NCBI GenBank assembly: GCA_949916125.1
Contig: CATLEJ010000010.1
Coordinates: forward strand, 1-33,468
Origin: an uncultured Oscillospiraceae bacterium
Lineage (GTDB): Bacteria > Bacillota > Clostridia > Oscillospirales > Oscillospiraceae
Length of the DNA: 33,468 nucleotides
Reading direction: 5' to 3'
Shown here: positions 10,230 to 31,137 of the stretch, in pieces
Layout: each line of letters begins with the position of its first letter
How positions within the stretch are numbered: position 1 is the first letter of the stretch
The notes under the pieces: model-generated
What the model saw: only the letters and a program-made list of their open reading frames with translations
Told to the model about the DNA's origin: nothing
The model's database searches: none
Position numbers and translations under genes: made by a program

Positions 10230-10367
10230 CCTTGTCACACTCGGATTGGCCGCGCGGCCGGGTCGCTTTCGCTTCGATTCGGATAAAAAACAGATTTGCC
10301 GCGCAAATCCTGGTTTTTCATCCTCACTCCGCTCCAAGCTCCCCTGCGCGGCTATCCTCGCGCTTCC
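10230..10367 (-). repeat. R2 repeat copy E, between rpsO and pnp
   Basis: This is the most divergent R2 copy. On the minus strand it keeps GGAGCGGAGTGAG, GAATCGAAGCGAA and an end like GAGTGTGACAAGG, in the order of the other copies. Its central hairpin is unique and strong (GATTTGC/GCAAATC inside GGAT-AAAAA/TTTTT-ATCC; 10281-10323). It lies in the pnp 5' leader. Confidence 0.6.
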
Positions 10368-10425
10368 TTTTAGCACTTGAACACAAGCCCCGACTGTTGC
10401 CAGGACCCATGTTCAACTGCTAAAA
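10368..10425. repeat. 16-bp inverted repeat in the rpsO-pnp spacer
   Basis: TTTTAGCACTTGAACA (10368-10383) is matched by its inverse complement at 10410-10425 with a single mismatch. The loop is 26 nt. In RNA it would be a long stem suited to RNase III or to protein binding. Its role is not known. Confidence 0.65.
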
Positions 10426-10443
10426 GTGCGGCTCTAATGGGAG

Positions 10444-10471
10444 AGGGCGGCACGGTCACCCGCGCCGCCCT
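10444..10471 (-). terminator. GC-rich hairpin in the rpsO-pnp spacer
   Basis: AGGGCGGC (10444-10451) pairs with GCCGCCCT (10464-10471). On the minus strand there is no clear U-tract after it, so it may attenuate or stabilise the transcript rather than end it fully. Confidence 0.5.
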
Positions 10472-10486
10472 TTGTTTACGGTAACG

Positions 10487-10616
10487 GGCATTGTCACGCT
10501 GCGCCTGTTCGCCACGCGCGGCTTCGCTGCGACTCAGGCAAAACCCGATCCCGCTTTGCGGGCCCTGGGCTTTTGCCTTCGCTCCATCCGCGCTGCTCAC
10601 GACGGCTCCGCGCTTC
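10487..10616 (-). repeat. R2 repeat copy C, directly after rpsO
   Basis: Read on the minus strand it starts 4 bp after the rpsO stop. It holds GAGCCGTCGTGAGC, the stem GCGCGG (10588-10593) with CCGCGC (10516-10521), an inner pair AGGCAAAA/TTTTGCCT, a CCCGC-AAA-GCGGG hairpin and an end like GCGTGACAAT. The same order of blocks is found after nusG. Confidence 0.75.
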
Positions 10617-10620
10617 CTGC

Positions 10621-10887
10621 TTACTTACGAATGCCCAGCTTGGCGATGATGGCGCGGTAGCGCTCGATGTCCTTCTTGGCCAGGTAGTCCAGCAGCTTGC
10701 GGCGCTTACCGATCATCTTGTACAGGCCGCGGCGGCTGTGGTTGTCGTGGATGTGCACCCGCAGGTGCTCGGTGAGCTCCTGGATGCGGGCGGTGAGGAT
10801 TGCGATCTGCACCTCGGGGGAGCCGGTGTCGGTCTCGTGGGTGCGGTTGGCCTCGATGACGGCCGTCTTCTGGTCCTTGCGGATCAT
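10621..10887 (-). CDS. rpsO: 30S ribosomal protein S15
   Basis: 88 residues, the usual length. It binds the 16S rRNA central domain early in 30S assembly. Clear family sequence: [50 protein letters not shown]. The ATG at 10887 is chosen over the GTG at 10899 because it gives the canonical start and AAGGTGG lies 8 bp before it. A promoter and two leader hairpins precede it; pnp follows on the same strand after a long spacer. Confidence 0.97.
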
Positions 10888-10944
10888 GGGGGATTCCACC
10901 TTTCCGATTTGATTGCCCTGCCGCTGGGTGATGGGCGGGTGAGT

Positions 10945-11001
10945 GCCGCGTTTCGCGGCGTTGTCCCAAAACTAAGCCGGCGGGCGCCCCTTATCGGGGC
11001 G
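10945..11001 (-). promoter_or_regulatory. rpsO 5' leader with two hairpins
   Basis: The predicted transcript start near 11004 leaves a leader of about 117 nt. It contains CGCCCC/GGGGCG (10985-11001) and GCCGCG/CGCGGC (10945-10959). S15 represses its own mRNA through structured leaders in many bacteria, so this is a plausible S15-binding leader; the match to any known class was not tested. Confidence 0.5.
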
Positions 11002-11010
11002 TACTTTGGA

Positions 11011-11039
11011 AGCATATCATATTTATTCCCATTTGTAAA
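11011..11039 (-). promoter_or_regulatory. rpsO promoter
   Basis: Minus strand: TTTACA (11034-11039), 17-bp spacer, TATGCT (11011-11016). Confidence 0.8.
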
Positions 11040-11133
11040 GCAGAAATTACCCCCCTATCCCCTTTTTATCGCAAAAAACGAAAGCGGGCCGGTTTCCCGC
11101 CCCGCGTTCCGTCTATATTCCGTTCCGTCCCTG

Positions 11134-11517
11134 TCAGAACACCAGCACCCGGAGGATCATGGCCACCATCACGCCCGCGGCGGACAGGGTGGCCGCCAGC
11201 TCGCCCAGGGCCAGCGCGGCGCGGTGCTTCTGCCGGGGGCGGCGGTGCAGCTCCCGGCCCTCGTAGGCGGCCAGGCCGCTCTCCAAGCCGTCAAAGCCGT
11301 CGGTTTCCTCCGCCACGTCCAGCTCGTCCAGCTCCATCAGGTTCTCCGTCTTCCACGCCGCCAGGTCGATCACCTTGCCCGTCCCGGCCGTGCCGGTCCC
11401 CGTCTCCCACCAGCAGGGCCCCGCCGGCCGCGCCTCGCCGGACGCCCGCTCCAGCCGCTGCCCCTCGGCCCGCTCCCGCCAGGCCGCCTGGTCCGTCAAA
11501 TAAATGGTGTGTTTCAT
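11134..11517 (-). CDS. Small protein with a C-terminal membrane anchor, unknown function
   Basis: 127 residues starting MKHTIYLTDQAAWRERAEGQ. The middle is acidic (LMELDELDVAEETDGFDGLE), a basic patch RRPRQKHR follows, and the last 25 residues form one hydrophobic helix ending VMVAMILRVLVF. This suggests a tail-anchored cytoplasmic protein. GGGAGG precedes the ATG at 11517 and a strong promoter lies 110 bp upstream. I do not recognise the family. Confidence 0.65.
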   Translation of the reverse strand: MKHTIYLTDQAAWRERAEGQRLERASGEARPAGPCWWETGTGTAGTGKVIDLAAWKTENLMELDELDVAEETDGFDGLESGLAAYEGRELHRRPRQKHRAALALGELAATLSAAGVMVAMILRVLVF

Positions 11518-11625
11518 TGCTCAAAGCCTCCCTTTGTTCTGTCTGGCCTCAGCATACCGCATCTCGTGTCCCATAAAGCGGCATATTTTGACGGGGTTCC
11601 TCAAATTTCTGTTCGTTTTTTCTTG

Positions 11626-11654
11626 ATAATAATATGTTAGTTCGAGTTTGTCAA
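11626..11654 (-). promoter_or_regulatory. Promoter of the small tail-anchored protein gene
   Basis: Minus strand: TTGACA (11649-11654), 17-bp spacer, TATTAT (11626-11631). The local sequence is AT-rich. Confidence 0.85.
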
Positions 11655-11684
11655 GGGGTTTTCGGAAATTTGTTCGATATTTTT

Positions 11685-11724
11685 TCAAAAAATTTCGCCC
11701 CCGGCACACGCCGGAGGCGAAATT
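11685..11724 (-). terminator. Terminator of the M23 endopeptidase gene
   Basis: AATTTCGCC-CCGGC pairs with GCCGG-GGCGAAATT (11691-11724) and is followed by six Ts on the minus strand. It starts 17 bp after the stop. Confidence 0.9.
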
Positions 11725-11740
11725 GCGGATTGTCCCAGGC

Positions 11741-13441
11741 TCAGAGGTAATTTCTGGGGTTGACGCTGGTGCCGTTCACCCGCACCTCGAAGTGGCAGTG
11801 GGGGCCGCTGGAGTTCCCGGTGGAACCGGCCCGGGCGATGATCTGCCCCTGGTACACCTTCTGGCCCACGCTCACCAGGGCGGCGGAGTTGTGGCCGTAG
11901 TAGGTGACGATGCCGTTGTCGTGGCGGATGGCCACCAGGATACCGTAGCTGCCGCTCCAGCCCGCCTTGATGACGGTGCCGCCGTCGGCGGCCTTGATGC
12001 CGGTGCCCATGGGGACGGCGATGTCGATCCCCAGGTGGAAGTCATAGCTGCCCCAGAGGTTGCGCCCGCCGAAGTTGGAGGTGATGGTGCCCCGCACCGG
12101 CCAGATGAAGTAGCCGTTGGAGGCGGTGACGGGCCGGGGGGTGGTGCCGGTGTAGGTGTAGGTGGTGGTGGCCTCCTTGGTGGTGGTGCTGCTCAGCACC
12201 TCCCGGTCCATCTCCACGTTGTTCACATAGGTGACCTGGGCGTTGATCAGGGCCATGCCGTCCTCGCCCTGCTCCTTCACCTTGGTGTCGCCCACGTACA
12301 GCTCGGCGGTCTCAATATACTCCACCGGGCTGGGGATCACCTGGTCATAGGTCTCGTTGGTGACCACCCGGACGGACAGGCGGGGCACCGCCTGCTGGAT
12401 GATGAGCTCCTGGCCCACCCACAGCTTGTTGACGATCACGTCCGGGTTGAGGACGGACAGCTCGTTGGGCATCATGTCCAGGGAGTAGGCGATGGCGTTG
12501 AAGGTGTCGCCCTTCTTCACCTCGTAGGTGGCCTGCTCCACCCGCAGGGCGGACAGCTCTGTCCGGATGGACTCCACGTCGAACTGGGTATTGGCCGGCA
12601 GCTCCACGGGGTAGATCTGCACGTCCTCCACAAACTCGTAGCGCACCGCGTCGGCGGGGATATAGGGCTGGGCGATCTCGTCCAGCATCCGGTACAGCTC
12701 CCCCTTGTCGGCGGCGACGCCCAGCTCCACCCCGTCCACCGAGATGGCGTAGGCCGTCATATAGGCCCCCACCTCGTCAAACAGGGCGTCCTCCACCGCC
12801 ACGGCGTCGCACAGGGCGTCGGGGGCGGCGTAGGCCGGGGTAAAGGTGACCTGGGGCTGGTAGTCGTAGTCCTCGCCCAGCACACTGGCGGCCCGGGTTT
12901 CCACATTGGACACGATGGCCTTGCCCTCGTCCTCGTTAGAGACGAGGCCCACCTCCTGCCCGTTGACTTCCATCACATAGGCCCGGGCGTAGGTGCCCTT
13001 GAAGGACACCCAGCCGATGCCCACCGCCAGCACTGTCACATACAGCAGCGGCGACACCGGATGGCGGGCCACCACGCTGCGGATCTTCCCGGCGGCCTGG
13101 CTGACCCTGTCCCAGCCCCCGGCGGTCAGGTCGTTCACCCTGTCCCAGGCGGCCCCGGCGGCAGATAGGGCGGCCTTCCCGGCCTTGCCCGCCCATTTTC
13201 CGGCCCGGTCCAGCGCGGCCCTGGCCTCCTTCTTCACGTCGGGGCCCGCCTGCTTCGGCGGGGCTTCCTCCCGGACCTCCCCCTGCCCCTGGGCAGGCAT
13301 GGTCTGCTCAATATACTGCTTCCAGGACCGGGGCGGTGCGGCCTCCGGCCGGCCGCCCTCCTGGAGATCTTTTGCATCGGCTTCGCCCTTCACGGCGGAT
13401 GTTTCCACGTCTGCGCTTCGGCTGTCGTGTGTGTGCTTCAC
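11741..13441 (-). CDS. Membrane-anchored LysM-G5-M23 peptidoglycan endopeptidase
   Basis: 566 residues with a GTG start; AGGAGGG lies 6 bp before it, while the longer frame begins with a TTG lacking a site. Order: a charged cytoplasmic part (1-125), one membrane segment (about 130-147), an unassigned domain (150-300), LysM (about 306-350, TYEVKKGDTFNAIAYSLD), a G5-like domain (about 358-433) and an M23 domain (about 450-566). The zinc ligands are His469 and Asp473 (HLGIDI) and His550 of HCHFEV; His548 is the likely catalytic partner. It would bind peptidoglycan outside the membrane and cut peptide cross-links during growth or division. Three TGTAAC boxes upstream suggest WalR control. Confidence 0.92.
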   Translation of the reverse strand: MKHTHDSRSADVETSAVKGEADAKDLQEGGRPEAAPPRSWKQYIEQTMPAQGQGEVREEAPPKQAGPDVKKEARAALDRAGKWAGKAGKAALSAAGAAWDRVNDLTAGGWDRVSQAAGKIRSVVARHPVSPLLYVTVLAVGIGWVSFKGTYARAYVMEVNGQEVGLVSNEDEGKAIVSNVETRAASVLGEDYDYQPQVTFTPAYAAPDALCDAVAVEDALFDEVGAYMTAYAISVDGVELGVAADKGELYRMLDEIAQPYIPADAVRYEFVEDVQIYPVELPANTQFDVESIRTELSALRVEQATYEVKKGDTFNAIAYSLDMMPNELSVLNPDVIVNKLWVGQELIIQQAVPRLSVRVVTNETYDQVIPSPVEYIETAELYVGDTKVKEQGEDGMALINAQVTYVNNVEMDREVLSSTTTKEATTTYTYTGTTPRPVTASNGYFIWPVRGTITSNFGGRNLWGSYDFHLGIDIAVPMGTGIKAADGGTVIKAGWSGSYGILVAIRHDNGIVTYYGHNSAALVSVGQKVYQGQIIARAGSTGNSSGPHCHFEVRVNGTSVNPRNYL

Positions 13442-13519
13442 GGCTGTCCCTCCTGTTGCTGTCTTTCTATTCAACAAAACGAACCCGTCATTGTGGGCCC
13501 CGGCGCCTCCGCGCCATCG

Positions 13520-13556
13520 GTTACAAAGCTTCCCAAACAGTTACAAAATGGTTACA
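13520..13556 (-). promoter_or_regulatory. WalR (YycF)-type binding boxes upstream of the M23 gene
   Basis: On the minus strand TGTAAC occurs at 13551-13556, 13540-13545 and 13520-13525. The first two are separated by exactly 5 bp and fit the published WalR box (two TGTWAH hexamers spaced by 5 bp). The third is two helical turns from the second, on the same face. WalRK controls cell-wall hydrolases in Firmicutes, which fits the target. Confidence 0.72.
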
Positions 13557-13754
13557 GTGTTATCCTACACCCATTTCCCCCATTCGTCAACCCCTGATTT
13601 TCCGCCCCCCGGCGGGCCGTCCAGGGGCAGGCGGGCATATCTTGTTATGTTTTGCCGTATTTGGGGGCAGGACGGCACATTCTCTGGTGTATCCGGCAAA
13701 ACCGCCAAAATTTGGTCCCTTTTTTCGTCGCTTTCGCCCCGGCCCCCCGCCCCC
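13557..13754. other. Divergent intergenic region with no gene
   Basis: Between the M23 upstream boxes and the HAD promoter there is no plausible gene. A 9-bp inverted repeat, GTTTTGCCG at 13649-13657 and CGGCAAAAC at 13694-13702, lies in the middle and could be an operator; nothing else stands out. Confidence 0.5.
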
Positions 13755-13783
13755 TTGACAGGGGCACGGCTTTCGTCTACAAT
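13755..13783 (+). promoter_or_regulatory. Promoter of the HAD phosphatase gene
   Basis: TTGACA (13755-13760), 17-bp spacer, TACAAT (13778-13783). The leader is about 90 nt. Confidence 0.85.
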
Positions 13784-13880
13784 GAAAACCGCCGCGGGGC
13801 CGGCTCCGCGGCCCGGGGCCTGCGCCCCACCCCCGGAGCGATCCCCCGCCGGGGAACCTTTCACGTAAGGATTGATTTTT

Positions 13881-14708
13881 GTGGGCAAATTCGACGGAGT
13901 GCTGTTCTACTCCGACTACGACGACACCTTATATAATAGCACCCACACCGTCTCGCCGGAAAACCGCGCCGCCATCCGCTACTTCATGGAAAACGGCGGC
14001 CGCTTCTCCATCGCCACCGGCCGGGCCCACCGCACCTTCACCCCCCAGATCGGGCGGGAACAGCTGGAGCTCAACGCCCCGGTGGTGCTGTCCAACGGCG
14101 CCATGCTGTACGACTATCAGACGGATCGCTGTCTGGTGGAGACCCACCTGGACGGGGACGCCCCCGCCCGGCTGGCCCAGCTGTGCCTGGTGTTCCCCGA
14201 TCTGGCGGTGGAGGCCTACCACGGGGAGGAAATCTACGTCCACAACCCCAACGCCGTCACCACCGCCCATCTGAGCAAGGTGGGCGGGATCCAGATCCCC
14301 CGCCCCATCGGCCAGATGCCCACCCCCTGGATCAAGGTGCTGCTGGAGCAGGACCACCCCTATCTGCTGGCGGTGCAGGCCCACCTGCTGCGGTGCTGGG
14401 GGGACAGCTTCGAGGCCATCTTCTCCAACCCCTACCTGCTGGAGCTCACCGCCAAGGGCTGCCACAAGGGGGCCATGGCGCTGCGGGCGGCGGAGCTTCT
14501 CCACATCCCCCGGTCAAACCTCTACTGCATGGGGGACAACCAGAACGACATCCCCATGCTGGCCCTAAGCGCCCTCCCCTTCGCCCCCGCCAACTGCGCG
14601 CCGGAGGTCAGGGACTGGCTGGCGGCGCGGGGCGCTTCCCCCCTGAGTCACTGTGATGAACACGCCGTGGCCCAGGCCATCAAAGTGCTGGACGGCATCT
14701 ATCCATAA
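13881..14708 (+). CDS. Cof-type HAD-superfamily phosphatase
   Basis: 275 residues. Motif I is FYSDYDDTLYN, with Asp12 the likely nucleophile and Asp14 the acid/base. Motif II lies near SIATGRAHRTF, Lys of TAKGCHKG is motif III, and CMGDNQNDIPML is motif IV. The large middle cap places it in the Cof/IIB group, which hydrolyses sugar phosphates, flavin or PLP-type phosphates in the cytoplasm. The GTG at 13881 lies 9 bp after AAGGA; a TTG at 13872 touches that site and is less likely. Confidence 0.9.
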   Translation: MGKFDGVLFYSDYDDTLYNSTHTVSPENRAAIRYFMENGGRFSIATGRAHRTFTPQIGREQLELNAPVVLSNGAMLYDYQTDRCLVETHLDGDAPARLAQLCLVFPDLAVEAYHGEEIYVHNPNAVTTAHLSKVGGIQIPRPIGQMPTPWIKVLLEQDHPYLLAVQAHLLRCWGDSFEAIFSNPYLLELTAKGCHKGAMALRAAELLHIPRSNLYCMGDNQNDIPMLALSALPFAPANCAPEVRDWLAARGASPLSHCDEHAVAQAIKVLDGIYP

Positions 14709-14711
14709 GGC

Positions 14712-14746
14712 GCGGCCCCCCGCCGGAGGACGGGGGGCCGCTTTTT
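14712..14746 (+). terminator. Terminator of the HAD phosphatase gene
   Basis: GCGGCCCCCCG (14712-14722) pairs perfectly with 14731-14741, followed by TTTTT. Confidence 0.93.
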
Positions 14747-14882
14747 GCCGCTTTCAGAAAATCTTAAGAATCTCCCCTCTTATCAAGTTCACGGCCCTGC
14801 CGACACATAGGTTGGAATCGGACGACGGCGGATTTTCTGCCAAAATCTGGTGAAATTATGAGGATAGGAGCGAGAAAAGCAC

Positions 14883-15521
14883 ATGAATCTGATCAAACGC
14901 GCGACCCTTCTGACCCTGGCCCTGGTGATGGCGCTGGGCCTGACCGCCTGCGACATGATCGGCTCTAAGCCCGATATGCCCATGGAGATCACCATCGATG
15001 GCCACACCATCGCCCTGGGCCAGACCAGCGTCACCGACCTGGCAGGCTGGGGCTGGGACGTGAAGTTCTCCGGCACCCAGAACGAAATCAGGCCGGACGC
15101 TAAGTACGTGGCCTGTTACTTCACCATCCGCAAGAGCGAAAAGGGGTCCGGCGACCAGTTCTCTGTGTCCGTGTGGGTGCCTTTCCAGAAGAACAAGACG
15201 GACGACACCCACGTGAACCTCGACGAGGAGGAGAAGATGGCCAAGGAGGGCGGCGTGGTGTGCCGGGTGGACGTGCGCAAGGACGCCGCCAAAAACTTCA
15301 CCATCATGTACAACGGCAAGGATTACCAGGAGCTCACCTGGGACGACGTGAAGGAGATGGGCGCCACCGAGGCCCAGGGCTCCAACGAATACTCCCCCGT
15401 GTACAAGCTGGAGGTAGCCCAGGGCAGCCTGAATTTCAAGAAGGGCTACACCGGTGAGAACGAGCCGGGCGAGTTCGGCCTGAGCATGAACTCCGGGGCG
15501 TTCTCCAAGCTCCAGAAGTGA
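14883..15521 (+). CDS. Lipoprotein of unknown function
   Basis: 212 residues. The signal peptide MNLIKRATLLTLALVMALG ends in the lipobox LTAC, so Cys23 would be lipidated and the protein anchored outside the membrane. The mature part is soluble, with alternating strands (for example YVACYFTIRK, FSVSVWVPF, FTIMYNGKDYQEL), and has no motif I can name. GGAG lies about 12 bp before the ATG at 14883. The H repeat follows its stop codon directly. LspA from this window would process it. Confidence 0.82.
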   Translation: MNLIKRATLLTLALVMALGLTACDMIGSKPDMPMEITIDGHTIALGQTSVTDLAGWGWDVKFSGTQNEIRPDAKYVACYFTIRKSEKGSGDQFSVSVWVPFQKNKTDDTHVNLDEEEKMAKEGGVVCRVDVRKDAAKNFTIMYNGKDYQELTWDDVKEMGATEAQGSNEYSPVYKLEVAQGSLNFKKGYTGENEPGEFGLSMNSGAFSKLQK

Positions 15522-15567
15522 GTTCCTTTTTCTCGAGAGAAAAAGGAACCGAAAAAGAGCTTGAAAC
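15522..15567 (+). repeat. H repeat copy 3 after the lipoprotein gene
   Basis: GTTCCTTTTTCTC (15522-15534) pairs with GAGAAAAAGGAAC (15537-15549), then CGAAAAAGAGCTTGAAAC follows. It begins with the first base after the stop codon. The layout matches copies at 2631-2675 and 3683-3734. Confidence 0.72.
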
Positions 15568-15628
15568 CGTTACCATAGTAATGCTGAATGATCTGTTTTG
15601 CGTCGGCGTCGGGGCGGGCGCAGGATAG

Positions 15629-15661
15629 AAAAAGGCCCCTTCCCGTTCCTCGGGGAGGGGC
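15629..15661 (-). terminator. Terminator of the HD-domain gene
   Basis: GGCCCCTTCCC pairs with GGGGAGGGGC around a short loop; on the minus strand five Ts follow. It is 7 bp after the stop codon. Confidence 0.88.
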
Positions 15662-15667
15662 TTCTTC

Positions 15668-16249
15668 TTATTTTCCTTCCAGGAAATACGATGCCTCCAT
15701 ATCCGCGGTAGCCAGGGCGAAGGCCAGCGGGTACTGCTGGAGGGCCTGCCCCACCACCCGGTCGTCCTCCGGGCCGGAAAAGCCCATGTGCCAGCGGATG
15801 GCCATGGCCTCCTCCCGGGTGAGGCGCATGAACCCTGAAATAATGTACACCGACTTCTCCCCGTGGCCGTAGGGGAGCTTATCCTCGTAGTAGAAGGTGT
15901 CCACCTTGCTCCATTTGCCGGTGGCGTCGTCCTTCACGTTCCGGGTGCCCGCCCGGTAGCACCCCACCTTGCACAGGTCGTGGAGCAGGGCGGCGATGGC
16001 CACGGATTCCATGGGGTATTCCACCCCGTAGACCTCCTTCACCCGGTCCCGGGCCAGGTACGCCTCCAGGCAGCGGAACACGTTGACGCTGTGGTCGCAC
16101 AGCCCCCCGGCGTAGGAGCCGTGGAACCGTGCGGAGGCGGGGGCGGTGAAAAAGTCGCTCTTGTTTTCCAGATAGTCCAGCAGTTCCTCCGAGCCCTCCC
16201 GGTGGATGTACTCCCGATAGATCCCGATAAATTCCTCTTTCCCGGGCAT
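15668..16249 (-). CDS. HD-domain phosphohydrolase
   Basis: 193 residues. His53 in LCDHSVNV and the His90-Asp91 pair in ALLHDLCKVG form the HD metal site. Such proteins hydrolyse nucleotides or act on tRNA ends or cyclic nucleotides; the specific substrate cannot be read. The short form without other domains resembles small clostridial HD hydrolases. AAGGAGG lies 8 bp before the ATG at 16249; the longer open frame upstream overlaps a palindromic leader and is unlikely to be translated. Confidence 0.85.
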   Translation of the reverse strand: MPGKEEFIGIYREYIHREGSEELLDYLENKSDFFTAPASARFHGSYAGGLCDHSVNVFRCLEAYLARDRVKEVYGVEYPMESVAIAALLHDLCKVGCYRAGTRNVKDDATGKWSKVDTFYYEDKLPYGHGEKSVYIISGFMRLTREEAMAIRWHMGFSGPEDDRVVGQALQQYPLAFALATADMEASYFLEGK

Positions 16250-19304: not shown

Positions 19305-19388
19305 AAGGGGCCCCCGCAAAGCCGCCCTTCAGGCTTCGCGGGGGAAGGAGGCGCAGCGGGGCGGACGCGCGGGCTGCGCCGACGAAAG
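19305..19388 (+). repeat. R1 repeat copy a, before the sigma factor gene
   Basis: Hairpin 1: CCCCCGCAAAGCC (19311-19323) with GGCTTCGCGGGGG (19332-19344), loop GCCCTTCA. Hairpin 2: GGCGCAGC (19350-19357) with GCTGCGCC (19373-19380). It ends in GACGAAAGG, which merges with the ribosome-binding site of the sigma factor gene. Confidence 0.75.
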
Positions 19389-21239: not shown

Positions 21240-21470
21240 AATCGAGGCGGCCCAGCCGCAGGCGCAGGCCGCCGATCCGATCTCGACGGGGCCCCGGGCC
21301 GCCGGCCTTCAGGCGGCCTGGGGAAAGGAGGCGCAAAGGATTGATTGGGCTTTGCCCTAACGGGGCCCCCGCAAAGCCGCTCTCCAGGCTTTGTGGGGAA
21401 GCGAAAAAATTTCCCGTCCGGCGCAGCTTTCCGCCGCCCTTCAGGCGGGAAGCGGAGCGGTAAGGGGAAT
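21240..21470 (+). repeat. R1 repeat copies b and c, between tRNA-Lys and tRNA-Gln
   Basis: Copy b: CCCCGGGCCGCC (21292-21303) with GGCGGCCTGGGG (21312-21323), then GCGCAAAG (21331) with CTTTGCCC (21350). Copy c: CCCCGCAAAGCC (21367-21378) with GGCTTTGTGGGG (21387-21398), then AAATTTCCC with GGGGAATTT enclosing GCTTTCCGCC/GGCGGGAAGC around the loop GCCCTTCA. The stem sequences differ between units but pairing is kept. Confidence 0.72.
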
Positions 21471-21718: not shown

Positions 21719-21804
21719 CAAAGGGCCCCCGCAAAGCCGCCCTCCAGGCTTTGTGGGGAGAGGCGGGGCAAGGGAACGGAACCAAGCGGAGTCTGCCCCG
21801 ACGA
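21719..21804 (+). repeat. R1 repeat copy d, between tRNA-His and tRNA-Arg
   Basis: Hairpin 1: CCCCGCAAAGCC (21727-21738) with GGCTTTGTGGGG (21747-21758). Hairpin 2: GGGGCA (21765-21770) with TGCCCC (21794-21799), then GACGA. Confidence 0.75.
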
Positions 21805-21897: not shown

Positions 21898-22048
21898 AAC
21901 GGGGCAGGAAAACGAATCCAAGCGGACTTTGCGCCCAAACGGGGCCCCCGCAAAGCCGCCCTTCGGCTTTGTGGGGAAAGGAAGGGCAAGGGAACGGAGC
22001 GTGGGATACCCGCAGGGCGTCCCACGCGGAATGGACTTTGCCCCGACG
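21898..22048 (+). repeat. R1 repeat copy e with a preceding half unit, between tRNA-Arg and tRNA-Gly
   Basis: A half unit GGGGCA...TTTGCGCCC (21901-21935) precedes the full copy. Hairpin 1: 21946-21957 with 21965-21976. Outer stem 2: GGGCAA (21984-21989) with TTGCCC (22038-22043), enclosing GCGTGGGA (21999-22006) with TCCCACGC (22020-22027). It ends in CGACG. Confidence 0.75.
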
Positions 22049-22871: not shown

Positions 22872-22887
22872 CCTCGTATGTTCCCAG

Positions 22888-23018
22888 TTGTCACGCTCGC
22901 GTTGGACACGCTTTCGTTTCGGCTTCCCTCCGACTCGAGCTGGTCTCTGGGGCCTTGCGGCCCCATCGCTCGCTCTCGCTCCGGTCCATCCGAAACGGCG
23001 TGTCTACGCTCGCGCTTC
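22888..23018 (-). repeat. R2 repeat copy D, directly after rplA
   Basis: On the minus strand it follows the rplA stop codon. Stems: GCGTGTC (22998-23004) with GACACGC (22905-22911) and CCGAAACG (22990-22997) with CGTTTCGG (22915-22922). These replace the GCGCGG/CCGCGC stem of the other copies while keeping the GGATGGA and GAAGC edges. The inner hairpin is GGGGCC-GCAA-GGCCCC. It ends in GCGTGACAACT. Confidence 0.78.
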
Positions 23019-23714
23019 TTACGCGAACTTGCCGGTGTTCAGCTTCACGCCGGGGCCCATGGTGGACGCGGCGACGCAGCTCTTGACATACTGGCCCTTG
23101 GCGGCGGCGGGCTTGGCCTTCACGATGGCCGTCATCAGGGCGTTCAGGTTATCGCTGAGCTTCTCCGCGCCGAAGGACACCTTGCCGATGGGGCAGTGGA
23201 TAATGTTGGTCTTGTCCAGGCGGTACTCCACCTTACCGGCCTTGATCTCGTTGACGGCCTGGGTCACGTTGGGGGTGACGGTGCCGGCCTTGGGGGAGGG
23301 CATCAGGCCCTTGGGGCCCAGCACCTTACCCAGGCGGCCCACCACGCCCATCATGTCGGGGGTGGCGACCACCACGTCGAAGTCGAACCAGTTCTCCTTC
23401 TGGATCTTCTCCACCATGTCCATATCGCCCACAAAGTCGGCGCCGGCGGCGCGGGCCTCGTCGGCCTTGTCGCCCTTGGCGAACACCAGCACCCGGGCGG
23501 TCTTACCGGTGCCGTGGGGGAGGACGATGGCGCCGCGGACCTGCTGGTCGGCGTGGCGGGAGTCCACGCCCAGCTTTACGTGCAGCTCCACGGTCTCGTC
23601 GAACTTGGCGGTGGCGGTCTTGATGACCAGGTCCATGGCCTCGTTCACGTCATACTGGGCGGCGCGGTCGATGAGCTTGGCGCTGTCCACATACTTTTTG
23701 CCTTTCTTAGCCAT
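23019..23714 (-). CDS. rplA: 50S ribosomal protein L1
   Basis: 231 residues. It forms the L1 stalk near the E site and in many bacteria represses its own operon. Clear family sequence: [79 protein letters not shown] precedes the ATG. It lies 18 bp after rplK. The rplJ-rplL-rpoB genes that usually follow are absent here: the next features are an R2 repeat and the convergent XRE gene. Confidence 0.98.
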
Positions 23715-24170: not shown

Positions 24171-24251
24171 CTCCTACATGAAATGTGGTGGTTGCGGAGC
24201 CCGCTTCGGGGGCTCCTCCCACGGGCGGGTCTTACCCGCCTCTTGTTTTTG
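24171..24251 (-). promoter_or_regulatory. Two hairpins before rplK
   Basis: GGAGCCC (24196-24202) pairs with GGGCTCC (24210-24216), and GGCGGGT (24224-24230) with ACCCGCC (24234-24240). They sit between the R2 repeat and the rplK start. L1 regulates rplK-rplA through such leaders in other bacteria; whether these hairpins are its target is not shown. Confidence 0.45.
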
Positions 24252-24378
24252 TTATCACGCCTCGCCTGTTCGCGGCGCGCGGCTTCGCTACGACTCGGGC
24301 TGGTCTCCGGCCCGCTTACGCGGCCCTGCGCTCGCCCTCGCTCTGCTCCATCCGCGCTGCTCACGACGGCTCGGACGC
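24252..24378 (-). repeat. R2 repeat copy B, directly after nusG
   Basis: On the minus strand it begins right after the nusG stop with GCGTCCGAGCCGTCGTGAGC. Main stem GCGCGG (24352-24357) with CCGCGC (24277-24282); inner GGGC/GCCC pair and a GGCCGC-GTAA-GCGG type hairpin; end GGCGTGATAAC. It lies inside the nusG-rplK spacer of an otherwise compact operon. Confidence 0.76.
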
Positions 24379-24897
24379 TCAGATCGTCTCGACCTGGTCC
24401 AGCTCCAGCTCCACGGGGGTCTCCCGGCCAAACATGGAAACCACCACGCGGACCTTGCCCCGCTCGGTGTCCAGCTCCTCCACCGTGCCGATGAAGGAGG
24501 TGAGCGCGCCGTCGGTGATCTTTACGCTGTCGCCCACCTTGTAGGCCACCACCACCTCGCGCTTTTCCACGCCCAGGGCGGCGATTTCCTCGTCGGTGAG
24601 GGGGATGGCCTTGTTGGCGGCCCCCACGAAACCGGTGACGCCCCGGATGTTGCGCACCAGGTGCCAGGTCTCGTCGGTCATAATCATCTTCACCAGCACG
24701 TAGCCGGGGAACACCTTGCGCTCCACGGTCTTGGGGCCGTTGTCGGTGATCTCGGTGACGGTCTCCAGGGGGATGGACACCTCGGCGATCAGGTCGTGCA
24801 TATTGCGGTTCTCCACTGCCTGCTCAATGGACACGGCCACGGTATTCTCATAGCCGGAGTAGGTGTGGGCCACATACCACTTCAGTTCGTCCGCCAT
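24379..24897 (-). CDS. nusG: Transcription elongation/antitermination factor NusG
   Basis: 172 residues. The NGN domain (about 3-110: KWYVAHTYSGYENTVAVSIEQ, FPGYVLVKMIMTDETWHLVRNIRGVTGFVG) binds RNA polymerase; the KOW domain (about 120-170: GDSVKITDGALTSFIGTVEELD) contacts ribosomal protein S10 or Rho. The ATG at 24897 gives the standard start; the frame continues upstream only as overlap with secE. No strong ribosome-binding site lies in the 7-bp gap, so it may be coupled to secE translation. Confidence 0.97.
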   Translation of the reverse strand: MADELKWYVAHTYSGYENTVAVSIEQAVENRNMHDLIAEVSIPLETVTEITDNGPKTVERKVFPGYVLVKMIMTDETWHLVRNIRGVTGFVGAANKAIPLTDEEIAALGVEKREVVVAYKVGDSVKITDGALTSFIGTVEELDTERGKVRVVVSMFGRETPVELELDQVETI

Positions 24898-25604: not shown

Positions 25605-25610
25605 GGAGAT

Positions 25611-25639
25611 AGCATACCACACCTGCGGGGGCTTGTCAA
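25611..25639 (-). promoter_or_regulatory. Promoter of the rpmG-secE-nusG-rplK-rplA operon
   Basis: Minus strand: TTGACA (25634-25639), 17 bp, TATGCT (25611-25616). Confidence 0.9.
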
Positions 25640-25699
25640 GGGCTGTTTTTTTATTTATAATGTGTTCACCAACGCTTCATCATGACGGGAGGGATCGCT

Positions 25700-26119
25700 A
25701 TGCGCGTGATGGCCATCGACTACGGCGACGCCCGCACGGGGGTGGCGGTGTCCGACGCCGCCGGGCTGCTGACAGGGTACACCGCGGTCATCCAGGGACG
25801 CCAGGCCGAACGGGTGGCGGAGGAGATCGCCAAAATCGCGGCGGAGCGCCAGGTGGGGGAGCTGGTGATGGGCTTTCCTCGGAACATGGACGGCACGGAG
25901 GGGCCCAGGGCAGAGCTGTACCGCTCCTTCGCCGCGCTGGTGGAGGAAAAGGCGGGGCTGCCCGTCCGCCTGTGGGACGAACGGCGCACCACCATTGAGG
26001 CCCACCAGATCCTCCACGCCTCGGGGAAGAGGATGAAGGCCCACAAAAAAACCGTGGACGCCGTGGCGGCCTCCCTCATTTTGGAGGGGTACCTTGCCTT
26101 CCGGGCCCGCAATCCGTAA
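25700..26119 (+). CDS. ruvX: Holliday junction resolvase-like RuvX/YqgF nuclease
   Basis: 139 residues, usual length. RNase H-like fold with MRVMAIDYGDARTGVAVSD (Asp7 is the first catalytic Asp), LVMGFPRNMDGTEGPRA, LWDERRTT and a final Asp in KKTVDAVAASLIL. In bacteria it takes part in 16S rRNA 5'-end maturation and perhaps recombination. The ATG at 25700 follows GGGAGGG; the frame starting at 25682 adds MTGGIA without a site. Confidence 0.95.
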   Translation: MRVMAIDYGDARTGVAVSDAAGLLTGYTAVIQGRQAERVAEEIAKIAAERQVGELVMGFPRNMDGTEGPRAELYRSFAALVEEKAGLPVRLWDERRTTIEAHQILHASGKRMKAHKKTVDAVAASLILEGYLAFRARNP

Positions 26120-26124
26120 CGCGA

Positions 26125-26157
26125 AAGGCCCCGGGCCGTCGGCCCGGGGCCTTATTT
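26125..26157. terminator. Terminator between ruvX and transketolase genes
   Basis: AAGGCCCCGGGCC pairs perfectly with 26141-26153, loop GTC, then TTATTTT on the plus strand. The convergent transketolase gene ends 10 bp further on. Confidence 0.9.
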
Positions 26158-26166
26158 TGCCTTATT

Positions 26167-27111
26167 TCAGCCTCGGACAAACGCCTGGGCGGTCTGGGCG
26201 ATGCCCTGCGCGCACAGCCCGAACTGCCGCAGCAGCTCCGCCGCCGGGCCGGAGTGGCCGAACACATCGGGGGTGCCGATGCGCCGCACGGGGGTGGGCC
26301 GCCTCTCGCTGAGGAAGGAGCACACCGCGTCCCCCAGCCCGCCGATGACGGAGTGTTCCTCGCAGGTGACGATCTTCCCGCACTCTTCCGCCGCCTTCAG
26401 CACCAGCTCCTCGTCCAGCGGCTTCACCGTGGCCATGTTGATGATCCGGGCGTCGATCCCCTGGGCGGCCAGCAGTTCCCCGGCCTCCACCGCCTCGGCC
26501 ACCAGCAGGCCGTTGGCGATGATGGCGATATCCCTGCCCTCCCGCATGACCTCGCCTTTGCCGATCTCGAAGCGGAAGGCCGCCTCGTCGTGGAACACCG
26601 GCACCGGGGAGCGGCCGAAGCGCATATACACCGGCCCCTCGTGCTCATAGGCGGCCTTCACCATGGCCCGGGCCTCCACCTCGTCGGCGGGGGACATGAC
26701 CACCATGCCGGGGATGGAGCGCATGAGGGCGAAGTCCTCCAGGCACTGGTGGGTGGCCCCGTCCTCCCCCACGGAAATGCCCCCGTGGGAAGCGCCGATC
26801 TTCACATTCAGTCCGGTGTAGCCGATGGAGTTGCGCACCTGCTCATAGGCCCGCCCCGCCGCGAACATGGCGAAGGACGAGGCAAAGGCCACCATGCCCA
26901 TGGAGGCGGCCCCGGCGGCCACCGCCATCATGTTCCCCTCGGCGATGCCGCAGTTGAAGTGGCGGTTGGGGAACGCCTTGCCGAAGACCGCGGTCTGGGT
27001 GGAGCCCGCCAGGTCCGCGTCAAACACCACCACATTGTCATGCAGCTCGCCCAGCTCCTTCAGCGCCGCGCCGTAGCCCGCGCGGGTGGCAATCTTTTTC
27101 ACGTCCGCCAT
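26167..27111 (-). CDS. Transketolase, C-terminal subunit
   Basis: 314 residues covering the pyrimidine-binding and C-terminal domains of transketolase; with the upstream gene it forms the split enzyme common in anaerobes. It moves two-carbon units between sugar phosphates in the pentose phosphate pathway with thiamine diphosphate. The Glu of FNCGIAEGNMM activates the cofactor; GASHGGISVGEDGATHQ lies in the active site. GGAGGGG lies before the ATG; the two genes are separated by only 1 bp. It is the last gene of the galM-transketolase group. Confidence 0.95.
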   Translation of the reverse strand: MADVKKIATRAGYGAALKELGELHDNVVVFDADLAGSTQTAVFGKAFPNRHFNCGIAEGNMMAVAAGAASMGMVAFASSFAMFAAGRAYEQVRNSIGYTGLNVKIGASHGGISVGEDGATHQCLEDFALMRSIPGMVVMSPADEVEARAMVKAAYEHEGPVYMRFGRSPVPVFHDEAAFRFEIGKGEVMREGRDIAIIANGLLVAEAVEAGELLAAQGIDARIINMATVKPLDEELVLKAAEECGKIVTCEEHSVIGGLGDAVCSFLSERRPTPVRRIGTPDVFGHSGPAAELLRQFGLCAQGIAQTAQAFVRG

Positions 27112-27112
27112 A

Positions 27113-27958
27113 TTACGACCCCTCCAATTCCGCCAGCCTGGCCCTCAGCTCCGCCATGGCGATCTCATACTGCTCCGCGTTGGGGGCCTTGCCGTGCCAG
27201 CCCACCTGGTTTTCCATATAGCTGACCCCCTTGCCCTTGGTGGTCTTCATCAGGATGGCGAAGGGCTTGCCCTTCACCGTCCCCGCCCGGGCGAAGGCCC
27301 CCTCAATGGCGTCGAAGTCGTGGCCGTCGATCTCCGCCGTCTCGAAGCCGAAGGCGGCCAGCTTGTCCAGGATGGGGTAGGAGCTCATCACCTGCTCCAC
27401 CGGGCCGTCGATCTGGAGGCCGTTGTTGTCGATGACCACCCGCAGGTTGTCCAGCTTGTAGTGGTGGGCGAACATAAACGCCTCCCACACCTGGCCCTCC
27501 TCGATCTCGCCGTCGCCCAGCAGGGTGTACACCCGGCAGGGGTTGTTCTGGAGCTTGGCCGCCAGGGCCATGCCGCAGGCGGCGGACACCCCCTGGCCCA
27601 GGGAGCCGGTGGACATATCCACGCCGGGGGTGGAGCGCATATTGGGGTGGCCCTGGAGGTGGGAGCCGATGTGGCGCAGGGTTTTCAGATCCTCCCAGGG
27701 GAAGAAGCCCCGCAGCGCCATGGCGGCATACAGCCCCGGGGCGCAGTGGCCCTTGGACAGCACGAAGCGGTCCCGGTCGGGCTTGTCCGGCTGGGCGGGG
27801 TCGATGTTCAGCTCCTTAAAGTACAGGTAAGTGAACAGGTCGGCGGAGGACAGGCTCCCGCCGGGGTGGCCGGACTTGGCGGCATAGGTGCCCTCGATGA
27901 CGCCCATACGCACCTTGCAGGCGTTGATCTCCAGCGCTCTTTTTTCGTTGGCAGTCAT
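27113..27958 (-). CDS. Transketolase, N-terminal subunit
   Basis: 281 residues, the thiamine-diphosphate-binding half. Motifs: SGHPGGSLSSAD (29-40), SKGHCAPGLYAAM (68-80), and the diphosphate/Mg motif GDGEIEEGQ...NN (GDG at 148-150, Asn178-179). The ATG at 27958 has AAGGA upstream and the normal start MTANEKRALE; the longer frame enters the galM spacer. It is 37 bp after galM, so sugar epimerisation and the non-oxidative pentose phosphate path are probably coexpressed. Confidence 0.95.
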   Translation of the reverse strand: MTANEKRALEINACKVRMGVIEGTYAAKSGHPGGSLSSADLFTYLYFKELNIDPAQPDKPDRDRFVLSKGHCAPGLYAAMALRGFFPWEDLKTLRHIGSHLQGHPNMRSTPGVDMSTGSLGQGVSAACGMALAAKLQNNPCRVYTLLGDGEIEEGQVWEAFMFAHHYKLDNLRVVIDNNGLQIDGPVEQVMSSYPILDKLAAFGFETAEIDGHDFDAIEGAFARAGTVKGKPFAILMKTTKGKGVSYMENQVGWHGKAPNAEQYEIAMAELRARLAELEGS

Positions 27959-27995
27959 GTGATTCCTTCTTTCTGCGGTTTGCGGAAATTGACAG

Positions 27996-29195
27996 TTAAA
28001 GCCGGACGCCCAGGGCCGAGGGCGCGAGGCGGAAAAAGCGGTAGCTGGTGGTGCTCTCGTACGCCTCACCCGCCTTCAGGACACAGGGGGGGAACCCGGG
28101 CTGGTTGGGCGTGTCGGGGAAGAACTGGGTCTCCAGGCAGAAGCCGTGGCGGTTGCCGTATACCGCGCCCCCCTTGCCAGGGGGGCAGCCCTCGATAAAG
28201 TTCCCCGTGTAAAATTGCACCCCGGGCAGGGTGGTATGCGCGGACATGGCGATGCCGGTGTCCGGCGAGAAGGAGAGGGCGGCCAGGCGGAGCTGCTTCT
28301 CCCAGTCGTCCAGCACCAGGTCGCTGACCCTTTGATCGTCAGCCGCCCTGTCGTCCACCACCCAGTTGTGGCGGAGCTGCTTCTCCCAGTCGTCCAGCAC
28401 CAGGTCGCTGACCCTTTGATCGTCAGCCGCCCTGTCGTCCACCACCCAGTTGTGGTCGTACCCCCCCGCCATGGCCAGCTGGTCAAAGGGATCGCCGATG
28501 TGGGCCCCGATGGGCTGGATGGCGCGCAGGTCCATGGGGGTGCCGTCCACCGGGGCGATCTCCCCGGTGGGGATGGAGCCCGGAACCGTGGGGGTGTAGC
28601 GGGAGGCGAACAGCCGGATATACTGGCCCTCCACGCTGCCGCTGTCGTGGCCGGACAGGTTGAAATAGGTGTGGTTGGTGGGATTCAATACGGTATCCTT
28701 GTCACACCTGGCCCGGTAAGTGATGATCAGCCGGCTCATGGATAACTCATAGGTCACATGGATGTCCAGCGTGCCGGGGTAGCCCTCCTGCCCGTCGGGG
28801 CTGACCAGGGAGAGGGTGACGGAATTCCCCGTCAGCTTCTCCACCGTCCACACCCGCTTGTCAAAGCCCACCTTCCCGCCGTGCAGGGAGTTGGGCCCGT
28901 CGTTGGCGGCCAGCCGGTACTCTGTGCCGTTCAGCGTGAACCTCGCCCCGCCGATGCGGTTGGCGTACCGCCCCACCAGCGCGCCCATGTACTTGTCCTG
29001 GGCCATGTAATCCTCCAGCGTGTCGAAGCCCAGGGCCACGTCCACCGGCCTGCCGTCCCTGTCGGGCACGGTCAGGGAGCGCACCGCCCCCCCGTAGGTG
29101 AGGATCCGGCACGCCATAGACCCATCTTGCAGGGTGATCTGATCCACCTGCGTCCCATCTGGCATACGGCCGAAGGCCGTCCTGTTTTCCTCCAT
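27996..29195 (-). CDS. galM: Aldose 1-epimerase (mutarotase) with internal 28-residue duplication
   Basis: 399 residues; GalM proteins are usually about 340-360. It interconverts alpha- and beta-anomers of hexoses. Catalytic residues by family analogy: His105 (NSLHGG), His175 (NPTNHTYFNL), Asp247 (GGYDHN) and a C-terminal Glu in FCLETQFFPD. Residues 248-275 and 276-303 are identical (HNWVVDDRAADDQRVSDLVL and the next eight), encoded by a perfect 84-bp tandem repeat. Removing one copy gives 371 residues. The duplication lies after the substrate-binding Asp and may disturb the fold. A promoter of its own lies upstream. Confidence 0.92.
   Translation of the reverse strand: MEENRTAFGRMPDGTQVDQITLQDGSMACRILTYGGAVRSLTVPDRDGRPVDVALGFDTLEDYMAQDKYMGALVGRYANRIGGARFTLNGTEYRLAANDGPNSLHGGKVGFDKRVWTVEKLTGNSVTLSLVSPDGQEGYPGTLDIHVTYELSMSRLIITYRARCDKDTVLNPTNHTYFNLSGHDSGSVEGQYIRLFASRYTPTVPGSIPTGEIAPVDGTPMDLRAIQPIGAHIGDPFDQLAMAGGYDHNWVVDDRAADDQRVSDLVLDDWEKQLRHNWVVDDRAADDQRVSDLVLDDWEKQLRLAALSFSPDTGIAMSAHTTLPGVQFYTGNFIEGCPPGKGGAVYGNRHGFCLETQFFPDTPNQPGFPPCVLKAGEAYESTTSYRFFRLAPSALGVRL
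28287..28454. repeat. Perfect 84-bp tandem duplication inside galM
   Basis: 28287-28370 and 28371-28454 are identical base for base. 84 is a multiple of three, so the reading frame is kept. No mismatch in 84 bp implies a very recent event, a repeat under expansion/contraction, or an assembly artefact. Confidence 0.97.
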
Positions 29196-29242
29196 AGTCC
29201 CTCCGCTCCGCCGGACGTCCGGCCTGTGTAATATTCACCTGT

Positions 29243-29271
29243 AGTATATCATAGTAACCCGCCGAAAACAA
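29243..29271 (-). promoter_or_regulatory. Promoter of the galM-transketolase operon
   Basis: Minus strand: TTGTTT (29266-29271), 17 bp, TATACT (29243-29248). Confidence 0.8.
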
Positions 29272-29339
29272 CCGCAAACCGCTTTTTTCCGGCTATTTTG
29301 TCGAATTGTCAAGTCTGCCCGGAAATTTCCTTTTTCCCG

Positions 29340-29368
29340 TTGGCATCCCCGCCGCTTTTTGATATAAT
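29340..29368 (+). promoter_or_regulatory. Promoter of the DUF1538-PII operon
   Basis: TTGGCA (29340-29345), 17 bp, TATAAT (29363-29368). A second AT-rich block with TATAAT lies about 20 bp further on and could be a weaker start. Confidence 0.85.
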
Positions 29369-29403
29369 ACCAGAAAGGATTATAATAGTGGGGGTATACC
29401 CTC

Positions 29404-30957
29404 ATGGAAAGGAAGGTGGCGCAGTTGCGCGGTTCCCTCCCGAAATTAAAGGAGAAGCTGATGGAAGCGCTGAAGGCGGTGCTGCCCATTGTGGGCATTG
29501 TGCTGGCGCTGTGCTTCAGCGTGGCCCCCATCTCGCCCAGCATCCTGCTGTGCTTCCTGCTGGGGGCGGCCATGCTTATGGTGGGCATGATGTTCTTCAC
29601 CCTGGGGGCGGAGGCCAGCATGACCCCCATGGGGGAGCGGGTGGGCACCGCCGTCACCCGCAGCCGCAGCCTGCCCGTCATCATCCTCATGGGCTTCCTG
29701 CTGGGCTTCCTCATCACCATCTCCGAGCCGGACCTCCAGGTGCTGGCCGGGCAGGTGCCCTCCGTGCCCAACATGGTGCTGATCCTGTCGGTGGCGGCGG
29801 GGGTGGGGGTGTTCCTGGTGCTGGCGCTGCTGCGTATGCTGCTGGGCGTGGCCCTGCCCCCCATGCTGGTGTGCTCCTACATCGTGGTGTTCCTGCTGGC
29901 CTTTTTTGTGCCCCGGGATTTCCTGGCCGTGGCCTTCGACTCCGGCGGCGTCACCACCGGGCCCATGACCGTCCCCTTCATCATGGCCCTGGGCGTGGGC
30001 ATCTCCGCCATCCGCAACGACCGCCACGCCGCGGACGACAGCTTCGGCCTGGTGGCCCTGTGCTCCATCGGCCCCATCCTGGCGGTGCTGGTGCTGGGCA
30101 TGATCTTCCGCCCGGAGGACGGCGCGTACGCCGCCCCCGTCCTGCCCGAAATCAACGACTCGGTGGAGCTGTGGGCCCTGTTCCGGGACGGCCTGCCCAC
30201 GTACATCAAGGAGATCGCCCTGTCCCTGCTGCCCATTGTGGCGCTGTTCGGCGCGTTCCAGCTGGCGGTGCTGAAGCTGTCCGCCCGGAACCTGAAAAAG
30301 ATCGGCGTGGGCCTGGTCTATACCTATGTGGGCCTGGTGCTGTTCCTCACCGGGGCCAATGTGGGCTTCATGCCCGCGGGCAACTACCTGGGCCAGGTGA
30401 TGGCGGGGCTGGCCCACCCCTGGATCATCATCCCGGTGGGCATGGTCATCGGCTACTTCATCGTCAAGGCGGAGCCCGCCGTCTACGTGCTCAACCGCCA
30501 GGTGGAGGAGATCACCGACGGGGCCGTCTCCTCCTCCGCCATGGGGGCCAGCCTGTCCATCGGCGTGGCGGTGTCCATCGGCCTGGCCATGGTGCGGGTG
30601 CTGACGGGCGTCTCCATCCTGTGGTTCCTCATCCCCGGGTACGCCATCGCCATCGTGCTGTCCTTCTTCGTGCCCAAGATCTTTACCGCCATCGCCTTTG
30701 ACTCGGGCGGCGTGGCCTCCGGGCCCATGACCGCCGCCTTCCTGCTGCCCTTTGCCCAGGGGGCGTGCGCGGCGGTGGGGGGGGACATCGTCACCGACGC
30801 CTTCGGGGTGGTGGCCATGGTGGCCATGACGCCCCTGATCGCCATCCAGGTGCTGGGTATGGTATACACCGCCCGACAGCGCACCGGGGCCAAGGCCCAG
30901 CCCGCCCCGGCCCTGTCCTTCGACGAGCTGGACGACGACGCCATTATCGAGCTATGA
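29404..30957 (+). CDS. DUF1538 family polytopic membrane protein with internal duplication
   Basis: 517 residues with about 12 or more hydrophobic segments. Two halves repeat the same hallmark: VPRDFLAVAFDSGGVTTGPM (169-188) and VPKIFTAIAFDSGGVASGPM (about 424-443), followed by similar glycine-rich segments. The pattern is that of a DUF1538 transporter-like protein with two-fold pseudo-symmetry; Asp in AFDSGG lies within the membrane part and may bind an ion or substrate. The ATG at 29404 fits family N-termini; the ATG at 29461 has the better site (AAAGGAG) and is an alternative. The next gene encodes a tandem PII-like protein, which suggests an ammonium- or carbon-linked transport control unit. 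Confidence 0.88.
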   Translation: MERKVAQLRGSLPKLKEKLMEALKAVLPIVGIVLALCFSVAPISPSILLCFLLGAAMLMVGMMFFTLGAEASMTPMGERVGTAVTRSRSLPVIILMGFLLGFLITISEPDLQVLAGQVPSVPNMVLILSVAAGVGVFLVLALLRMLLGVALPPMLVCSYIVVFLLAFFVPRDFLAVAFDSGGVTTGPMTVPFIMALGVGISAIRNDRHAADDSFGLVALCSIGPILAVLVLGMIFRPEDGAYAAPVLPEINDSVELWALFRDGLPTYIKEIALSLLPIVALFGAFQLAVLKLSARNLKKIGVGLVYTYVGLVLFLTGANVGFMPAGNYLGQVMAGLAHPWIIIPVGMVIGYFIVKAEPAVYVLNRQVEEITDGAVSSSAMGASLSIGVAVSIGLAMVRVLTGVSILWFLIPGYAIAIVLSFFVPKIFTAIAFDSGGVASGPMTAAFLLPFAQGACAAVGGDIVTDAFGVVAMVAMTPLIAIQVLGMVYTARQRTGAKAQPAPALSFDELDDDAIIEL

Positions 30958-31137
30958 GCGCTGAGCCGTCGTGAGCCGCGCGGATGGACCCAATAGGGCC
31001 CCCACAAAGCCGCCTTTTGGCTTTGCGGGGAGAGGAGAAGCAAGGTAGCGAGCGTAGTTTTCGCCAAAGGCGGAAACGGAGTGAAGCGGACTTTGCTTCG
31101 ACGAAAGCCGCGCGTCGCGAACAGGCGAAGCGTGACA
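30958..31137 (+). repeat. R2 repeat copy A with a nested R1 unit
   Basis: R2 arms: GAGCCGTCGTGAGC and GCGCGG (30978-30983) before, CCGCGC (31108-31113) and GCGTGACAACT after. Between them lies a full R1 unit (about 30996-31104): CCCCACAAAGCC with GGCTTTGCGGGG, then GAAGCAA with TTGCTTC enclosing GTTTTCGCC/GGCGGAAAC. The element fills the gap between DUF1538 and PII genes and begins at the DUF1538 stop. Confidence 0.8.

Follow-up and report, generated by a model that had tools for sequence, protein, structure and literature searches.

Why should one structured repeat stand directly behind the stop codons of unrelated genes? The question is raised by a 33,468-nucleotide stretch, here called the window, of contig CATLEJ010000010.1 (assembly GCA_949916125.1) from an uncultured Oscillospiraceae bacterium. 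A sequence-only reading of the window described five copies (A to E) of an intergenic repeat, R2, with covarying stems, and offered 3'-end protection, RNase processing and mobility as possible roles. Our analysis favours the last. R2 is probably a small non-autonomous hairpin element, akin to repetitive extragenic palindromes (REPs) and miniature inverted-repeat transposable elements (MITEs), that is or was mobile and is specialised for the 3' ends of genes. Small palindromic repeats occur widely, yet little is generally known of their movers or of the part played by their RNA. R2 combines dozens of copies in a genome with well-defined ends, several forms (mini, standard and nested), sites left empty in sister species and a control repeat in the same loci. 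It offers a natural experiment on how elements come to gene 3' ends and on whether they tune transcripts in gut Oscillospiraceae.

A covariance model was built from 17 copies of the source genome, including B and C; A, D and E are absent from the alignment. With the best 150 of 1173 candidates scored, the model gives at least 85 matches at E <= 0.01 in this draft genome, and all five window copies are recovered at the places and on the strands first described. R2 is thus short, non-coding and dispersed in many copies, as MITEs are. The figure of 85 is a lower bound, because, when 12 further 5' ends were read, 8 turned out to belong to complete copies outside the scored candidates. A blastn search with the copy B stretch found at least 35 matches in the same genome (40 of 61 candidates scored). 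Several copies lie at the ends of contigs (C117, C144, C193, C116 and C2), so that the draft assembly breaks at the repeat and copy number is underestimated.

Gene calls around the copies came from a codon model trained on seven genes of the window. Seven of the 85 matches fell under 34 bits, leaving 78, and nine of these lie inside called genes, leaving 69. Removing six array members that stand behind another copy, and then three copies with no upstream gene in view, reduced the set to 63 and finally to 60. Fifty-four of the 60 lie in the sense direction of the upstream gene. The stop codon is at or in the 5' end of the element in 41 of these 54 copies (23 abutting, 18 inside the first part of the element), whereas 8.7 would be expected if copies were placed uniformly in these spacers, and none of 200,000 simulations exceeded 19. 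In spacers of at least 60 nt, 19 of 30 copies abut the stop, against 0.9 expected. Many matches thus lie beside stop codons in the sense direction, a pattern that the sequence-only reading had named as support, and neither strand nor position is random relative to genes.

Placement was also read in a second set, an uneven sample of other species that takes in Flavonifractor, Pseudoflavonifractor, Lawsonibacter and Enterenecus. Pseudoflavonifractor sp. 60, a cultured carrier, has an R2 copy in locus L059. It holds 120 of 128 matches, listed in 100 loci of genome_contigs records, and leaves out L137-L147 (11 of 111 loci) and eight matches at locus ends. Among the matches listed, 84 of 99 are in sense, and the stop is at or in the 5' end in 63 of the 84 (45 abutting, 18 inside). 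For those with a downstream gene in view the count is 58 of 78, against 13.8 expected; in spacers of at least 60 nt, 33 of 53 abut, against 1.8. A different palindromic repeat in the same loci served as a control (28 copies, one of them the repeat nested in copy A; a weak control taken alone). Its orientation is sense in 11 cases out of 20, and in none of these 11 is a stop codon at its 5' end (Fisher's test against R2, P = 0.0015 for orientation and 7e-7 for the stop). Since the control repeat lacks the bias, the bias is a property of R2, and the placement null and the control together rule out gene density as the cause of abutment. The 5' part of the element itself offers stops in two frames, GCGCTGA in some copies and GTCGTGA in the main type, which accords with life at gene ends.

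A typical copy starts with (A)GAAGCGC and finishes with GCGTGACAA(C). Between these ends lies a nested hairpin made of a short foot, a subtype-specific outer stem, conserved purine-rich internal loops, more stems and an apical hairpin. GAAGCGC and GCGTGACAA are probably the recognised termini of the element. Greedy clustering of the 5' arms of 70 copies gave nine clusters, and the 3' arms vary along with them. Pairing between a copy's own arms is stronger, in 70 of 70 copies, than its mean pairing with arms of different type (-30.6 versus -21.5 kcal/mol); taken singly, 95.6% of the cross pairings between arm types are weaker than the own pairing. In the 17-copy alignment both sides have changed in 14 of 32 pairs, against a shuffle mean of 4.9, and none of 500 shuffles reached 14. 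When partners are slid by 1-3 columns only 2 to 6 such pairs remain. Covariation is thus strong, in line with the paired stem changes first noticed among the window copies.

The wobble pairs of 100 distinct copies of at least 100 bits point to the sense strand as the folding one. Two wobble columns are kept, in 98 and 92 of the copies. Outside these, G-U cells outnumber A-C cells on the sense strand (87 versus 29), with 17 columns leaning to G-U and four to A-C. Because the copies are related, the covariation and wobble figures are indications and not exact probabilities. Each window copy also folds more stably than its dinucleotide shuffles (z scores in Table 1).

The window copies adjoin genes whose Pfam identities are PNPase, S15, L1, L11, NusG and DUF1538. 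Copies C, D, B and A begin at stop codons on the coding strand, as had been proposed; flush in Table 1 denotes a gap of 0 nt, measured for B and A to the GCGT/GCGC core. Copy E was correctly placed before pnp. It has an outer stem other than the main type and lies in the sense direction in the pnp leader, where it adjoins a hairpin and not a stop codon. Copy A is an R2 copy by its model match, and its first description needs one correction: it is a composite, longer than the others because a repeat of another family, of the GGGGCCCCCGCAAAGCC type, is nested inside it. Positions 30996-31107, in the region of this insert, were matched at many unrelated places in genomes of the same genus.

Several size classes occur. 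Standard copies measure about 127-142 nt. Minis of about 38-44 nt consist of the outer stem alone (C82, C42, C5, C96 and C39 in the source genome, L234 and L235 in sister species), and composites of about 180-190 nt contain other palindromic repeats. GTCGYGARCA stands on both sides of the main-type outer stem, and loss of the sequence between these direct repeats may yield a mini. Behind 32 of the 78 copies of the source genome there is another complete or incomplete 5' end at a distance of at most about 35 nt, compared with 8 in a reverse-strand control (both by a loose pattern). Copies in arrays share one orientation, and in the arrays read there are no genes between them. Several R2 copies (L382, L384, L385) also enclose a palindromic module of a third kind, which contains GTGTGTGCCAGTGGCACACG or a variant of it.

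Orthologous spacers were searched in 42 genomes of the same genus, including the source genome; the comparison leaves aside L303-L316, 14 of the 30 loci from one sister-species search. At nusG, two empty sites (L239, L243) have TGA followed directly by CAAACAAGAGG, and the window has TGA, the element and then AAAACAAGAGG. These empty sites show clean insertion past the stop, without a fixed target duplication; flanks that match over a variable length were seen in some arrays only, as judged by eye. Other full copies lie within 3 nt of the nusG stop in L228, L231, L232 and L233, with a degenerate copy in L229 and the minis of L234 and L235. Among 16 loci read for the DUF1538 gene, four have R2 flush with the stop, in two outer-stem types, and eight have spacers of 12-15 nt without R2. 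Complete copies, of differing types, follow rplA in 4 of 30 loci and partial ones in two, and other sister species have empty sites. For rpsO, 28 loci were readable, and 5 of them have R2 at most 4 nt from the stop, in three types that share one downstream flank. L267 has two copies there, one of another type next to the stop and, beyond it, a mini-like one of the main type. The reuse of one stop codon by different subtypes points to some targeting, or the replacement of old copies by new ones. At one site where the stop is inside the element, sister species have a longer, variable gene tail. As they keep this tail, the gene end was lost here, and insertion exactly at the stop as the sole route is ruled out.

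The spread of R2 across the family is patchy. Strict filters were used and few candidates were scored per genome, so the figures are minima: at least 15 of 120 genomes and at least 13 of 106 genera in the family, and at least 7 of 197 genomes in the order, all seven within the same family. Rfam gave no known family that would explain the copies. A scan of the window at the gathering score matched five tRNAs and nothing in R2, and a permissive scan of 10150-10700, which holds C and E, gave weak matches only, outside both copies. Our literature searches brought up no account of R2.

Among the roles first suggested, mobility is the best supported, by this patchy spread, the empty sites, the turnover of subtypes at one site and the arrays; copies would appear to move or to have moved. 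They probably settle at gene 3' ends, directly past the stop and in the sense direction, or replace the last codons and supply the stop from their own 5' part. The copy would then form a 3' untranslated region (UTR) or an operon spacer, transcribed as one long imperfect hairpin. Selection would presumably act on the folded sense strand, which might be harmless or useful past a stop, or might be the mobilised form. A hairpin there could serve as a barrier to 3' exonucleases or as a substrate of RNase III. The element would persist in sense at gene 3' ends because its cost is lowest there, and may protect or process the transcript. The location could reflect either targeted insertion or selection after insertion.

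Several results weigh against this interpretation. Six of the 60 placed copies lie behind an upstream gene on the other strand, and nine of 78 matches are inside called frames (four sense, five antisense, three of the latter in one array). The placement null cannot yield stops inside the element, though these are counted; abutting stops alone number 23 against 8.7 expected in the source genome, and 45 against 13.8 in the other loci. One of five covariation measures, that of further pair types, is weaker, its value being reached by 13 of 500 shuffles. No fixed target duplication was seen and no movement within a species was observed. Neither a transposase nor an autonomous copy was found, in a search of the source genome for Y1 transposases and in the 12 further 5' ends, and no plasmid or phage record matched copy B in a distant blastn search.

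The 12 further 5' ends were read as possible starts of an autonomous parent, and none led to a gene-bearing copy. Eight belong to full or composite copies whose 3' end comes within 200 nt, L387 is a mini-like fusion, and for L379, L380 and L180 up to 2.5 kb was read without reaching a 3' end. As to the terminal inverted repeats that MITEs share with an autonomous element, the hairpin's foot is paired, and among these 12 ends no autonomous relative turned up, insertion sequences not being surveyed. On one IMG/VR contig, which has portal, head and terminase genes of phage type, R2 stands behind a TAG stop (L388:7380-7600), followed by the start of a second R2 copy. A vehicle is therefore on offer.

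The strongest alternative, though we consider it unlikely, is that R2 is chiefly a cis-regulatory RNA maintained by the host, mobility being its origin only. The hairpin would set mRNA half-life, 3'-end processing or the ratio of operon genes. Sense orientation, sense-strand wobble and the preservation of pairing across subtypes agree with such a role, as does the finding that, from one sister species to another, a given stop codon has been reoccupied by different subtypes. Yet most sister species lack R2 at the same genes, as the rpsO counts show, and at the nusG stop it is present in 8 of 30 loci, one copy being degenerate. Neighbouring genes have no evident common function, and minis retain the outer stem only.

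It seems improbable that insertion itself is tied to the points where translation stops. What moves would then be RNA of the sense strand, or that strand itself where the last ribosome has passed and left it exposed; copies would land past stops in sense, at the same nucleotide across species, and new copies would displace old ones. Abutment in spacers of at least 60 nt, sense-strand wobble, subtype turnover and the lack of a linked Y1 transposase fit this proposal, and the site where the element replaced a gene tail speaks against it. REPs near stop codons have reportedly been linked to ribosome stalling.

The way of life of R2 is already known from REPs. REPs are repeats of 20-40 bp with a terminal tag. 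By one account they lie near the 3' ends of upstream genes in several bacteria; their GTAG ends often supply a TAG stop, and subfamilies have changed, complementary stems with frequent GT pairs (PMC3733652). On that account R2 resembles REPs in being palindromic, in its many copies, in its position near the 3' ends of upstream genes (the 41 of 54 and 63 of 84 sense copies counted above) and in stem-swapped subfamilies with GT pairs (PMC3733652). However, R2 departs from REPs as defined on three counts: its length, the absence of a terminal tag and the lack of a linked transposase. Standard copies have several internal loops and exceed 20-40 bp, to which only the minis come near. R2 ends in GAAGCGC and GCGTGACAA, and CGTC, the tag of another REP family, lies inside the outer stem and not at the terminus.

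We therefore find it very unlikely that R2 is a REP moved by a Y1 transposase (a REP-associated tyrosine transposase, RAYT, or an IS200-type enzyme). An orientation-specific hairpin repeat near gene 3' ends, without a fixed target duplication, would suit such a mover, judging from the same account (PMC3733652). But the Y1 family PF01797 has no match in the source draft genome, which is about 95% complete. It was found in 16 of 42 genomes of the genus, in 3 of 19 with at least 10 matches in one search of the genus (a rough proxy for R2 richness) versus 13 of 23 others. A RAYT or IS200 link is thus not supported, and R2 lacks the GTAG tag and is far too long.

Other known repeats were compared by description only. 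Enterobacterial repetitive intergenic consensus (ERIC or RU-1) sequences are MITE-like imperfect palindromes of 127 bp, one of which replaced a gene's stop codon (PMC2759123). Their hosts are unrelated to those of R2, and in the part of that source available stop abutment is not reported as a rule (PMC2759123). The bcr repeats of the Bacillus cereus group are, like R2, structured repeats of Gram-positive bacteria; they are intergenic, in UTRs and operon spacers, some are MITE-like, and for bcr3 a correlation has been reported between its presence in a transcript and the rate of decay (PMC3446304). Stop abutment is not described for them in the corresponding part of that paper (PMC3446304).

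That R2 copies are integron-like recombination sites is scarcely credible: imperfect hairpins past stops in one orientation, and arrays in one orientation, recall attC sites, but the copies are scattered over contigs behind genes that include ribosomal ones and not in a cassette array, no genes lie between copies in the arrays read, and the attC core motif was not seen by eye at R2 ends.

Intrinsic termination was rejected as the general case. A scan of the B, C, D and E stretches, which missed a T-run hairpin read by eye behind rplA, found no sense-strand site in B, C or D and one inside E. In copy E the apical hairpin followed by GTTTTTTATC (window 10292-10310, minus strand) has a terminator-like score in sense, so that copy E might attenuate transcription into pnp.

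Table 1. R2 copies of the window, the repeat nested in copy A, and leaders of the source genome in which a T-box motif accompanies R2
Feature	Position (strand)	Setting	Match or basis	Folding z
R2 copy C	10487..10616 (-)	4 nt past rpsO stop TAA	covariance model match, 135.1 bits at 10487-10617; row of model alignment	-2.6
R2 copy B	24252..24378 (-)	flush with nusG stop TGA	covariance model match, 114.7 bits at 24248-24382; row of model alignment	-2.4
R2 copy D	22888..23018 (-)	flush with rplA stop TAA	covariance model match, 52.3 bits at 22884-23019	-8.0
R2 copy E	10230..10367 (-)	pnp leader, 3' of conserved hairpin	covariance model match, 60.4 bits at 10228-10367	-4.4
R2 copy A, composite	30958..31137 (+)	flush with DUF1538 gene stop TGA	covariance model match, 73.5 bits at 30954-31142	-5.6
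Other-family repeat	30991..31106 (+), borders approximate	nested in copy A	window family D1; own profile	
T-box leader with R2	L010:2541-2893 (-)	before leuA	Rfam T-box, 80.1 bits (below the gathering score, 93)	
T-box leader with R2	L018:2333-2652 (+)	before ASCH-domain gene, then alanyl-tRNA synthetase gene	Rfam T-box, 33.6 bits	
T-box leader with R2	L385 about 2870-3110 (-)	before acyltransferase gene, then class II tRNA synthetase gene	motif by eye	

In the three leaders of Table 1, R2 lies between the T-box motif and the terminator hairpin, that is, in the presumed antiterminator loop. Upstream of pnp, a near-invariant hairpin of about 57 nt (TTTAGCAGTTGAACA ... TGTTCAAGTGCTAAA) occupies about 10368-10430 of the window on the minus strand, with copy E directly behind it. 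Of 30 loci around pnp from the same genus, 27 gave a match to the hairpin, with both strands allowed. It stands before pnp in the rpsO-pnp spacers read and has no Rfam match. It could be a pnp leader element.

The GGGGCCCCCGCAAAGCC-type repeat, which served as the control above, is a second dispersed palindromic repeat of the window (19305-19365, 21285-21345, 21360-21420, 21720-21780, 21938-21998 and 30992-31052). Several of its copies lie among tRNA genes, and its orientation looks random. Finally, the predicted gene at 27996-29195 (minus strand) contains an exact tandem duplication of 84 bp at 28286-28453, which is codon-phased (28 codons).

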